From assembly GCF_001742225.1 (NCBI RefSeq), contig NZ_CP017075.1, positions 1,736,001 to 1,800,000 of the forward strand: DNA of 64,000 nt. Reading direction: 5' to 3'. Shown here in pieces: positions 4,836 to 8,655 of this stretch (within the stretch, counting starts at the first letter, position 1; every line of letters begins with the position of its first letter). The DNA is from Novosphingobium resinovorum (GTDB lineage: Bacteria > Pseudomonadota > Alphaproteobacteria > Sphingomonadales > Sphingomonadaceae). The position numbers and the translations under genes were made by a program. The notes under the pieces were generated by a model that saw nothing but the letters and a program-made list of their open reading frames with translations, was not told the origin of the DNA and did no database searches.

Positions 4836-5396
4836 ATGAAGGCAAATCCGCGCAGCCGCGCCACCCCTCTTTCCGCCCTGCTTCTTACCGGTCTCGCTGC
4901 AACGGCGGCTTTGTCGGGATGCGTACCGCCGCCGCCGAGCACGCCCGCCCCGCGGCCCGGCGCCACGCATGCACCGCAGCCCCGCCCGGCGACTCCGACC
5001 GCCCCGCCGCCCTCGCCAATGGCCGCCGACTGGCGCGATGCACCGCAGACGCCGGGCAGCTGGAGCTACGCGGGCAACGGCAGCGCCTCGGGCGCGACGT
5101 TCGGGAACGGCCAGTTCATCGTCCAGTGCGACACCGCGCGCACCGTCACCCTCCTGCGCGCCGCAGCGCCCCGGGCAGGAGCGGTGGGCATGTCGATCAC
5201 CAGTTCCACCGGCGCACGCGCGCTGACCGGCACCGCCACGCCGCGCGGCGTGGTCGTCACCCTGCCCGCCCGCGATTCGGCGCTCGACGCCATGGCGTTC
5301 AGTCGCGGCCGCTTCGCCGTATCAGTGACTGGGGAGCCCACGCTCTACCTGCCGAGCTGGACCGAAATCTCGCGTGTGATCGAGGATTGCCGCTGA
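4836..5396 (+). CDS. putative lipoprotein with Pro/Ala-rich linker
   Basis: 186 aa starting MKANPRSRATPLSALLL. Residues 1-29 form a lipoprotein signal with lipobox LSGC (Cys29), followed by a Pro/Ala/Thr-rich linker (about 30-63) and a compact domain (about 64-186) beginning DWRDAPQTPGSWSYAG and ending ISRVIEDCR. It should be anchored to the inner or outer membrane facing the periplasm. An ATG 30 bp upstream (4806) is in frame, but the later start gives a canonical signal peptide. I do not recognise the C-terminal domain. Two cysteines in the mature domain (in FIVQCDTA and EDCR) could form a disulfide. Divergent from tlyA; followed by a palindromic repeat. Confidence 0.75.
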   Translation: MKANPRSRATPLSALLLTGLAATAALSGCVPPPPSTPAPRPGATHAPQPRPATPTAPPPSPMAADWRDAPQTPGSWSYAGNGSASGATFGNGQFIVQCDTARTVTLLRAAAPRAGAVGMSITSSTGARALTGTATPRGVVVTLPARDSALDAMAFSRGRFAVSVTGEPTLYLPSWTEISRVIEDCR

Positions 5397-5418: not shown

Positions 5419-5487
5419 TTCGACAAGCTCAGCCTGAGCGGGATTGAAAGGTCACTTTTGAATCCCGCTCAGGCTGAGCTTGTCGAA
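5419..5487. repeat. long palindromic repeat, TTCGACAAGCTCAG family
   Basis: Perfect 27-bp inverted repeat: left arm 5419-5445 begins TTCGACAAGCTCAGCCTGAG, right arm 5461-5487 is its exact reverse complement, with a 15-bp loop. A related pair occurs at 7367-7435. In RNA it would fold into a very stable hairpin and could end transcription from the upstream lipoprotein gene. I associate the sequence with dispersed sphingomonad intergenic repeats (recollection, not checked). Confidence 0.9.
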
Positions 5488-5767
5488 CGGAGCCAAGCCG
5501 CGCGCAACATCAAAAAGGGCGATTTCAGGCCGCACTCCAGAGCCCCCAAAAGCAGCGATTTCAAATCACCGCGCGGCTGGGGATAACTGGCCGGAAGCGA
5601 AGATCATGACCGCAAAAAATTAGTTTTCAAGACTTGTTGTGCGCTGCGGGATGTACCAGATTTCACTCAAGACGACGGCCTTTCGGGATACGCGCCCGGG
5701 AAGCAGCCGAAGTCCCAGCCGCGAAAGCGGCGCACTATGGCTAAACAGCGCGAAAGGAGGTGATCCG

Positions 5768-5824
5768 ATGTCTCATGGTTCAGCAGAGAGGTCGGCAATT
5801 TCCGTCGCGAGGCATTATCGCTGA
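5768..5824 (+). CDS. 18-aa leader-type peptide MSHGSAERSAISVARHYR
   Basis: Short frame ATG...TGA placed 7 nt after GGAGG inside a Shine-Dalgarno matching 15 nt of the 16S 3' end, which would make ribosome binding exceptionally strong. The peptide is basic and Ser-rich and does not resemble a classical Leu/Ile/Val attenuator peptide. It lies between the structured upstream RNA and a terminator at 5877, so it may serve a regulatory role or be a real microprotein. Equally, the SD-like tract could be a 16S-binding decoy and the frame chance. Confidence in translation is modest. Confidence 0.35.
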   Translation: MSHGSAERSAISVARHYR

Positions 5825-5876
5825 TAAACAAGCGATAAAGGCTTCGCTGGCGGCACTTCCCGGCCGCTGACCATGC

Positions 5877-5918
5877 GAAGGGCCGTACCGGCAAGCCGGT
5901 GCGGCCCTTCTCATTTGT
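5877..5918 (+). terminator. intrinsic terminator of the candidate RNA
   Basis: 16-bp stem 5877-5892 / 5895-5910 (GAAGGGCCGTACCGGC with its complement, one G-U pair) closed by AA, followed by TCATTTGT. It ends the 5635-5918 unit about 260 bp before ilvE, so that RNA is unlikely to be a simple continuous ilvE leader unless read-through is regulated. Confidence 0.8.
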
Positions 5919-6048
5919 ACGCCCCTCCACCACCGACTGCGTCGGCGGTTCCCCTCCCCATCGCTTCGCGACAGGGAGGATGGGCTTGATCCTCCCTGTC
6001 GCGAAGCGATGGGGAGGTGGCAGCGGCGAAGTCGCTGACGGAGGGGTA
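5918..6048. repeat. large palindromic element before ilvE
   Basis: Inner perfect 29-bp arms 5953-5981 and 5989-6017 (left begins CCTCCCCATCGCTTCGCGAC; 7-bp loop), flanked by an imperfect outer pair (CCCCTCC near 5921 and GGAGGGG at 6040-6046). It resembles other CCCCTCCC/GGGAGGGG-type elements in this window (25354-25468, 41378-41489). The remaining 6049-6181 is AT-richer and probably contains the ilvE promoter; nothing else is seen there. Confidence 0.85.
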
Positions 6049-6181: not shown

Positions 6182-7282
6182 ATGGCGACTCTCGCCGATG
6201 CCGGCCTGACTTTCACCACCCTTGCCCACCCCGCCCCCGCCAGCGCCGAGACGCGCGCGGCCGTGCTGGCGAACCCCGGCTTCGGCACCAATTTCACCGA
6301 CCATATGGTGACGATCGAGTGGACTGAAGGTCAGGGCTGGCATGACGCGGTAATCGGCCCTCGCCAGCCGATCCCGCTCGATCCGGCGGCGGCGGTGCTG
6401 CACTATGCGCAGGAAATCTTCGAGGGCCTCAAGGCCTACAAGCAGGCCGACGGCGCCATCGCGCTGTTCCGCCCCGAAGCCAATGCCGCGCGCTTCAACA
6501 TGTCGGCCGAGCGTCTCGCCATGCCCGCGCTGCCCGAAAGCGTGTTCGTCGAAGCCATCGAGAAGCTGGTGCAGATCGACCGCGCCTGGATTCCCGAGGG
6601 CGAAGGCGCGTCGCTCTACCTGCGCCCGTTCATGATCGCGACCGAGGCGTTCCTCGGCGTGCGCCCGGCCAAGCAGTACAAGTTCATCGTCATCGCCAGC
6701 CCGGCGGGCAACTACTTCAAGTCGGGCGCGCCTGCCGTGTCGATCTGGGTTTCGGACTATACCCGCGCCGCCCCCGGCGGCACCGGCGCAGCCAAGTGCG
6801 GCGGCAACTATGCCGCCAGCCTCGTGCCGCAGGCCGAAGCGATCGCGCGCGGCCATGACCAGGTCGTCTTCCTCGACGCCGCCGAGCACAAGTGGATCGA
6901 GGAACTGGGTGGCATGAACCTCTACTTCGCGTTCGACGACGGCACCCTGCTGACTCCTGAACTGACCGGCACCATCCTGCCCGGCATCACCCGTGACAGC
7001 CTGCTGCAACTCGCCCGCGAAGAGGGCCTGACGGTGACGGAAGGCCGCTACAGCCTCGACCAGTGGCGCGCGGATGCTGCTTCGGGCAAGCTGATCGAGA
7101 CGTTCGCCTGCGGCACCGCTGCGGTCGTCACCTCGGTCGGCAAGGTCTCGGGCCGCGATGGAGATTTCACCATCGGCACCGGCGGCCCCGGCCAGTTGAC
7201 CGGCAAGCTGAAGAACCGCCTCGTATCGATCCAGCGCGGCGAAGCGCCGGACACTCACAGCTGGATCCGCAAGATCGGCTGA
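6182..7282 (+). CDS. ilvE: branched-chain amino acid aminotransferase
   Basis: PLP-dependent transaminase for the last step of Leu/Ile/Val synthesis and first step of their breakdown. The 366-aa length and motifs match the large, eukaryote-like BCAT type: EIFEGLKAYK (about 78-87), FRPEANAARFN, LYLRPFMIAT, the catalytic lysine K205 in GAAKCGGNYAASL, EELGGMNLYF and a C-terminal TFACGTAAVVT phosphate-binding loop. The ATG at 6182 has GAGGA at 6169-6173; a TTG five codons earlier is in frame but less likely. Monocistronic by appearance, flanked on both sides by palindromic repeats. leuB at the left of the window belongs to the same pathway but is not linked in an operon. Confidence 0.96.
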   Translation: MATLADAGLTFTTLAHPAPASAETRAAVLANPGFGTNFTDHMVTIEWTEGQGWHDAVIGPRQPIPLDPAAAVLHYAQEIFEGLKAYKQADGAIALFRPEANAARFNMSAERLAMPALPESVFVEAIEKLVQIDRAWIPEGEGASLYLRPFMIATEAFLGVRPAKQYKFIVIASPAGNYFKSGAPAVSIWVSDYTRAAPGGTGAAKCGGNYAASLVPQAEAIARGHDQVVFLDAAEHKWIEELGGMNLYFAFDDGTLLTPELTGTILPGITRDSLLQLAREEGLTVTEGRYSLDQWRADAASGKLIETFACGTAAVVTSVGKVSGRDGDFTIGTGGPGQLTGKLKNRLVSIQRGEAPDTHSWIRKIG

Positions 7283-8580: not shown

Positions 8581-8655
8581 TGGGGCGTCGCCAAGTGGTA
8601 AGGCACCGGTTTTTGGTACCGGCATTCGCAGGTTCGAATCCTGCCGCCCCAGCCA
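8581..8655 (+). tRNA. tRNA-Gln (anticodon TTG)
   Basis: Full cloverleaf: acceptor TGGGGCG/CGCCCCA, D-arm GCC...GGC, anticodon stem CCGGT/ACCGG enclosing loop TTTTGGT with anticodon TTG, and a GGTTCGAATCC T-arm region. Discriminator G at 8652 and encoded CCA 8653-8655. It reads CAA (and CAG by wobble). No integrase or att-like duplication is seen next to it. Confidence 0.97.

Follow-up and report, generated by a model that had tools for sequence, protein, structure and literature searches.

On comparative sequence evidence, a short element upstream of ilvE in the alphaproteobacterium Novosphingobium resinovorum is a free-standing small-RNA gene, and we regard it as firmly identified as a divergent homologue of the CC2171 sRNAs (RF01867). 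The RNA carries a near-ideal ribosome-binding site that is a complement of the 3′ tail of 16S rRNA, and a short open reading frame (ORF), of which the start and stop codons appear to be kept under selection and the peptide does not. The reading that we favor, with a probability of roughly 0.4, is a translation-coupled regulatory RNA whose fold would depend on the capture of 30S subunits and whose peptide would be a by-product.

All coordinates refer to the window, that is, the whole 64,000-nucleotide stretch of DNA that was analysed, and all features of the element are on its + strand. The element lies in a gene-free stretch between a frame ending at 5396 and the ilvE-like aminotransferase gene at 6182–7282 (+ strand; PF01063, E = 3.2e-32), which is a neighbor outside the element. 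The whole RNA gene is placed at 5738–5918 by the RF01867 match and by conservation in the family; both ends are estimates, and the likely transcript is about 180 nt long. It contains a 15-nt Shine–Dalgarno (SD) element, GAAAGGAGGTGATCC, at 5752–5766, complementary to the whole 16S 3′ tail, and an ORF at 5768–5824 (MSHGSAERSAISVARHYR) with ATG at 5768–5770, 18 sense codons and TGA at 5822–5824. A hairpin around the stop codon (5815–5838) follows, and a terminator-like stem-loop with a 15-bp stem and a weak U-tract is found at 5877–5910. The pieces described in a previous sequence-only reading of this DNA (the 15-nt complement, ATG, 18 codons, TGA, further hairpin and terminator-like stem) are all present. 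Near-perfect palindromes occur on both sides of the element, at 5419–5487 (34-nt arms, 94%) and 5953–6017 (29-nt arms, 100%), and they may be akin to the REP-like repeats of sphingomonads.

The segment 5744–5907 matches the RF01867 model over its full length (1–159 of 159) with 56.6 bits and E = 6.3e-11, a score that falls under the RF01867 gathering score of 75. At gathering thresholds, a search of the window with Rfam yields a tRNA only; the sole tRNA found in the window is tRNA-Gln (TTG) at 8581–8655. Against the whole genome the model gives a single match at E ≤ 0.01 (E = 1.2e-10). Among 289 genomes of the class, 69 have a match at E ≤ 0.01 and 9 exceed the gathering score, as do 3 of 14 loci from other lineages. 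In a further check all 8 loci matched at E ≤ 0.01, all under the gathering score, and even these scores are inflated because the loci were chosen by their SD pattern. The earlier suggestion of membership in a structured-RNA family thus acquires a name, CC2171. The likeness to speF-type leaders that accompanied it does not hold: at E ≤ 5 the segment 5380–6200 has 28 Rfam matches, none of them to speF, and a speF leader was rejected.

The window element shares with RF01867 the SD core GAAAGGAGGUGAUCC followed by the start region UGUCUCAU, and the terminator, and in the alignment to the model it may also form the long-range helix that links the start region to the stretch just before the terminator; the Rfam consensus can also be read as a short GUG...UAA frame. 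It differs from the description line of the family ("caulobacter sRNA"), which mentions neither an ORF nor a 16S complement; the sphingomonad ORF has 18 codons. CC2171 itself reportedly comes from Landt et al. 2008. In the available text of PMC5596092, an RF01867 candidate of M. huakuii, MH_s33, is listed with sequencing coordinates. The "Intergenic 60" sRNA of Paracoccus, conserved in Rhodobacterales and Sphingomonadales according to the accessible part of PMC5107571, could be the same RNA, a comparison made by description only. No 16S complement or ORF is described for the CC2171 family in the literature searched, which consisted of partial texts and mostly excluded subscription journals. 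Relative to those texts, the complement to the 16S tail, an ORF kept without its peptide and the class-wide range would be new.

In a sphingomonad from the same family, which also has the element, the 16S gene ends in ...GGCTGGATCACCTCCTTTCTAAGG. All 15 nt of GAAAGGAGGTGATCC can therefore pair with the tail, which is that of the relative and not of the window genome. The 16S 39-mer of S. meliloti, in the part of PMC6943124 that was available, agrees with it. The duplex has a predicted energy of −28.8 kcal/mol (ViennaRNA duplexfold), compared with −13.5 kcal/mol for the best competitor among 961 candidate ATG or GTG starts of window ORFs of at least 150 aa, a set that counts several starts per ORF and includes spurious ORFs. 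The 12-mer AAAGGAGGTGAT has two copies in the 6.9-Mb genome, one in the window element and one on contig C5. The latter (G000, C5:46577; L190 1501–1604) precedes a 29-aa hydrophobic ORF that is weakly Hol_Tox-like (PF16935, E = 0.0047, below the curated cut-off). The 15-mer is perfect in 107 of the 112 family matches to a 33-nt core with at most 3 mismatches. It is also perfect in 20 of 21 element loci of a set anchored on ilvE and fetched without reference to the SD (best 30 of 58 genomes). A 13-mer is present in 54 of the 60 loci collected by blastn or RF01867 (L009–L068, the window's own counted twice). The six deviating loci comprise L011, with a 2-nt deletion, and five A-to-G changes that still allow a G–U pair with 16S, one of them with a second change. 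Loci L070–L188 were fetched by an exact SD-and-start pattern, and the invariance of SD and start in them is by construction since that pattern was the query. In a copy from Rhodospirillaceae (L135, 2570–2772) the 11-nt segment GGATCACCTCC mimics the 16S tail and is predicted to pair with the RNA's own SD.

With the interval as a blastn query, 225 of 249 family genomes had a match at E ≤ 0.01, a count that includes weak matches taken without inspection. The 33-nt core occurs in 112 of 149 family genomes, one copy in each, and its reversed-pattern control gave 0. An exact 20-nt pattern was found in 63 of 289 class genomes and, in a phylum-wide sample, in 65 of the 113 alphaproteobacterial genomes and none of the 186 from elsewhere, with 0 matches of the reversed pattern in all genomes of that sample. 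The 20-nt pattern is single in each genome, with the sole exception of G091, which has two copies. At least 119 named loci belong to Alphaproteobacteria by title or to metagenome-assembled genomes labelled only Proteobacteria or Pseudomonadota (4), and the named genera, by our own placement, span Sphingomonadales, Rhodobacterales, Hyphomicrobiales, Caulobacterales, Acetobacterales and Rhodospirillales. We distinguish five lineages, partly named from the first residues of the ORF: MSHG (sphingomonads), MSHC (mainly Caulobacterales and Hyphomicrobiales), MSSE, Rhodobacterales and Bradyrhizobium. Some Sphingomonas-like genomes carry an element of the MSHC, that is Caulobacter-like, type (L053 in G091, and L132), and G091 has the MSHG type as well.

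The window element has 0 matches in 72,556 plasmid and 50,697 phage records, and a mobile or phage origin was rejected on this basis. The exact pattern does occur on 16 viral contigs, in some as part of ordinary longer ORFs and in others as short-ORF copies of the Bradyrhizobium or MSHC type. Short-ORF elements are present on the viral-classed contigs L221, L222, L224, L228, L232 and L236, several of them near contig ends, and those of L221, L222, L228 and L232 are of the Bradyrhizobium type. Such copies are possibly the host flank of prophages.

The 5′ end of the RNA was estimated from the relatives. Among the blastn matches listed, conservation begins at about 5712 at the earliest, and many more distant matches begin at 5738. 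In four other lineages the best promoter-like match often puts a −10-like hexamer 24–28 nt upstream of the SD (among the loci listed, 36 of 46 in MSHC, at least 18 of 30 in MSSE, 15 of 17 in Rhodobacterales and 8 of 9 in Bradyrhizobium), and such a hexamer would place the RNA start about 14 nt before the SD. Promoter-like scores modestly exceed those of shuffled sequences (for example, 7.17 vs 6.43), and in sphingomonads no promoter-like match above shuffles was found at the element (6.02 vs 6.24). From the ends of the distant matches and the hexamers of the other lineages we infer a start of the window RNA near 5738. The compact unit that had been drawn at 5635–5918 therefore stands in its 3′ part and loses its 5′ part, and the expected transcript of 250–280 nt gives way to the shorter one.

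The closest relatives have the element ahead of ilvE: a single cluster of downstream genes takes in 29 loci, with the window's own entered twice, and among 30 ilvE-anchored loci including the window's (best 30 of 58 genomes) it lies within 1.5 kb of ilvE in 21. The linkage is lost in other orders and in part of the family. The ilvE cluster is found downstream in 13 of the 32 named sphingomonad loci listed that have a downstream ORF, and 6 of 9 genomes with no element adjacent to ilvE carry it elsewhere, in G036, for example, at a distance of 303 kb. Of the 114 named loci listed with an ORF downstream, 56 have the first such ORF running opposite to the element, and the downstream proteins of the listed loci are very mixed, with unrelated neighbors in other orders. 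The flanking ORFs were called heuristically, and the comparison drew on 92 of the 114 ORFs downstream and 76 of the 116 upstream. Neighbors differ and lie on either strand, and the element is a gene of its own. The proposal of a leader whose translation gates something is accordingly not supported for a downstream gene, and gating survives solely as a possible control over the RNA's own fold.

Some local associations do recur. In Rhodobacterales the element follows a Vut_1 gene in 16 of the 17 loci listed, and a gene with an RF-1 domain, which we take to be ArfB-like, is within the next two ORFs in 8 of the 17. It adjoins the element in L077, L080, L082, L094, L130, L162 and L182 and is one ORF further in L096; L174 and L117 are also listed with an RF-1-domain neighbor, and the case in a Hyphomonadaceae genome is in another orientation. 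A link to ribosome rescue is possible, as is shared gene order. In Pelagibacterium luteolum (L144, 4867–5280) an FMN riboswitch (5129–5280) closely follows the element.

The frame is 14–36 codons long in 117 of the 119 named loci listed, with one frame of 59 codons and one cut by a contig end. Between the 10th and 90th percentile, the first in-frame stop falls at 18–19 codons in sphingomonads, 18–18 in Rhodobacterales, 14 in Bradyrhizobium, 20.5–25 in MSHC and 22–26 in MSSE. Its position is mostly wide in frames +1 and +2, with exceptions such as frame +2 of MSSE (1–2 codons), and every one of the five groups makes use of TAA, TGA and TAG. The peptide shows no sign of purifying selection. The dN/dS ratio (Nei–Gojobori) of frame 0 is 1.13 in sphingomonads (46 unique sequences; 0.74 and 0.53 in the control frames), 0.90 in Rhodobacterales (17), 1.03 in 25-codon MSHC sequences (13) and 1.21 in Bradyrhizobium (6); smaller sets gave 1.13–3.64 or were uninformative. 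In sphingomonads and Rhodobacterales the ratio of frame 0 is not lower than that of the other two frames. These estimates come from short ORFs overlapping RNA structure, with pairs more than 35% different left out; the groups total 170 loci, and the sphingomonad group includes L143 (Azospirillum, 59-aa frame), which is probably an ordinary gene. Peptides are alike within lineages (MSHGSA..., VSRVILERGVGT..., ...KRCHLAGIAR), and between lineages they share little past the first residues.

The interval folds better than all of 200 dinucleotide shuffles (z = −5.76). In the RNAalifold consensus of 39 sphingomonad sequences (alignment A1), 23 of 49 pairs changed on both sides, all of them in the stop-codon stem (5815–5822 with 5831–5838) and the terminator; columns 82–102 in the stop-codon hairpin, for example, have CG 17, GC 15 and UA 3 times. 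The consensus also contains a start-codon hairpin at 5765–5795 (CCGAU 5765–5769 with GUCGG 5791–5795), assigned to a closed state, whose pairs do not vary and hence do not covary. The covariance check suggested by the sequence-only reading finds covariation in the stop-codon stem and the terminator and, for a further helix, P1, in two other lineages. P1 joins codons 3–7 (in the window 5774–5784, codons 3–6) to a strand abutting the terminator (5866–5875) and was tested by permuting partners among sequences 5000 times. Real partners were better than permuted ones in MSHC (−8.85 vs −7.33) and MSSE (−6.37 vs −4.89), with 0 of 5000 permutations as good in either lineage, compared with 2522 and 3615 of 5000, respectively, for a control strand shifted by 25 nt. 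The strands are complementary in the window, but they are invariant in sphingomonads (1718/5000). The permutation test gave no support for P1 in Rhodobacterales (4370/5000) or Bradyrhizobium (796/5000). P1 therefore coevolves in two of the five lineages, MSHC and MSSE. In the window RNA the P1 state is predicted to lie 5.3 kcal/mol above the minimum (−92.0 vs −97.3), and the sphingomonad median is 3.5.

An internal anti-SD, CACTTCC at 5854–5860, can pair with GGAGGUG of the SD in an alternative closed state, with a probability of about 0.98 in the single-sequence fold of the window RNA. The segment predicted to hide the SD is CACTTCC in sphingomonads, C(A/G)(C/T)CTCC in Rhodobacterales and TCACCTC, inside the ORF, in Bradyrhizobium. 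Long-range SD sequestration of at least 0.8 is more frequent with native than with shuffled tails in sphingomonads (0.79 vs 0.33), Rhodobacterales (0.93 vs 0.29) and Bradyrhizobium (1.00 vs 0.26), and it is not enriched in MSHC (0.00 vs 0.25) or MSSE (0.21 vs 0.23); these values come from 14 loci per lineage (6 in Bradyrhizobium) with 12 shuffles each. Universal SD sequestration was rejected on account of the last two lineages. Native MSHC RNAs expose both the SD and the start codon more than their shuffles do, and in sphingomonads pairing of the start codon is not above that with shuffled tails (0.60 vs 0.64). Elements outside 150–245 nt were dropped from the closed-fold, shuffle, stop-position and P1 tests, and some terminator positions found by script are wrong, such as that of L010 in the stop-position test. 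RNAalifold gave 37 pairs for 14 Rhodobacterales sequences, including the SD:anti-SD pairing and 7 pairs with two-sided changes. For 22 MSHC sequences it gave only the terminator and a 3-pair SD hairpin, without P1. In prefix folds of the window RNA the SD is mostly paired by 79 nt, before the anti-SD is made, and a simple co-transcriptional order of open then closed states gained no clear support from them.

These results lead us to propose the following scheme. The very strong SD would capture a 30S subunit. An initiating ribosome covers the codons that form the 5′ strand of P1, so that engagement of the 30S and formation of P1 would be mutually exclusive and a captured subunit would have to open P1. 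The ribosome would then translate a few codons and leave at the stop, and because the ORF is short the 3′ part of the RNA would be spared. The RNA would thus have two forms, one engaged by a ribosome and the other closed, and how stable it is, or how it acts in trans, would track how readily, or what kind of, 30S initiates. The peptide is seen as a by-product because start and stop are kept at dN/dS values of about 1, and the element may sense or hold ribosomes instead of making a useful protein. Counting against this explanation, the A1 consensus contains neither P1 nor the SD:CACTTCC helix (CACTTCC is in a hairpin loop, and SD pairing is limited to positions of the GGU 5759–5761 type with ACC), SD sequestration is limited to some lineages, start-codon pairing in sphingomonads does not exceed that of shuffles, and P1 is missing from the MSHC consensus and unsupported in Rhodobacterales and Bradyrhizobium. 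The energy of the P1 state in the window RNA and the early pairing of the SD in prefix folds count against it as well.

A cis-acting leader or attenuator of ilvE is suggested by the position of the element in the nearest relatives (the 29-locus cluster and the 21 of 30 anchored loci), but the element has its own terminator, Ile, Leu and Val are not abundant in its peptide, the ilvE cluster follows at only 13 of the 32 sphingomonad loci listed, and 6 of the 9 family loci lacking the element at ilvE have a copy elsewhere in the genome. Neighbors in other orders are unrelated, and this explanation is largely refuted; we give it very little credence. A small mRNA or dual-function sRNA with a functional 18-aa peptide would account for the conserved start, stop and ORF length and for the similarity of peptides within each lineage, and two previously predicted ncRNAs of Caulobacter are in fact translated according to the available text of Schrader et al. 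2014 (PMC4117421). Against it, nonsynonymous changes are about as frequent as synonymous ones or more so, lineages have little in common past the first residues, and several of the conserved stretches overlap predicted RNA pairing. A functional peptide as the main product was rejected because dN/dS is about 1, and we consider the explanation as a whole improbable.

The RNA could serve no other purpose than to bind up 30S subunits, or to compete for the tail of 16S rRNA, with the ORF and stop codon merely releasing ribosomes. The very strong pairing with the entire tail, an SD invariance that exceeds the needs of initiation, and the open SD and start of the MSHC type all fit such a sponge or reservoir, the sponge being among the options of the sequence-only reading. 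A single-copy gene, however, needs extremely strong transcription to matter against thousands of ribosomes, and P1, the narrow range of ORF lengths and the closed states are left unexplained, which makes this role unlikely in our estimation. Other sRNAs or mRNAs that have C-rich loops of the CCUCC type might instead be the pairing partners of the G-rich SD, ribosome binding being a side effect, and sponge sRNAs are known in Caulobacter (SisA; available portion of PMC12559287). The conserved complement, however, takes in GAAA and GAUCC and so comes close to the exact limits of the 16S tail, and a start codon and ORF follow at initiation spacing in the loci read (the start being part of the query for L070–L188). 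We therefore rate such a trans-acting sRNA as a poor candidate.

A bolder form of the translation-coupled regulatory RNA would be a dedicated gauge of ribosome state across the Alphaproteobacteria. Only, or mainly, those 30S subunits whose 16S tail is freely exposed would read it, such as subunits lacking bS21, newly matured or idle. Translation of an ORF indifferent to sequence would flip the fold, and the folded or the unfolded RNA would act in trans. We consider this form unlikely, but were it true, an mRNA-like RNA would be maintained because initiating on it is useful in itself, whatever it encodes. A start and stop selected without a selected peptide have no precedent in the partial texts of the literature searched. 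The Rfam family labelled as a Caulobacter sRNA has relatives in many alphaproteobacterial groups, its member here carries the strongest 16S complement found in the window, and a dedicated RNA of this kind would offer a compact, genetically simple handle on the sensing of 30S availability or heterogeneity.

Among known systems, the speF-type leader is likewise a structured RNA of alphaproteobacteria, and the element differs from it in having no match to its covariance model. A tiny ORF on a small RNA is shared with rnTrpL/peTrpL of Sinorhizobium meliloti, although rnTrpL, in the available parts of PMC10117765 and PMC7298713, is leaderless and acts as the trpE attenuator; the present RNA bears an SD, and no downstream gene is conserved with it. 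Pos19 of Rhodobacter sphaeroides is likewise an alphaproteobacterial sRNA, 219 nt long, with a translated sORF (translation of our element being predicted) and with regulation independent of that translation. As far as the accessible text of PMC5036791 goes, Pos19 differs in being reported only in strains of R. sphaeroides, in an SD that is partly important, in its longer ORF and in its RpoE promoter. The exceptionally strong pairing between SD and 16S tail has its counterpart in the rpsU mRNA of Flavobacteriales, whose extended SD is read by ribosomes lacking bS21 (available text of PMC9976891). The pairing of −28.8 kcal/mol found here is stronger than the −13 kcal/mol associated there with bS21-free reading, though the energies of that paper may have been obtained by another method. 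The same partial text has rpsU as the mRNA of a ribosomal protein, in bacteria with ribosomes that disregard SDs, unlike our free-standing RNA with a drifting tiny peptide. It is this bS21-free reading of very strong SDs in Flavobacterium, as far as it is set out in the available text of PMC9976891, that suggests the reading of the element as a ribosome gauge.
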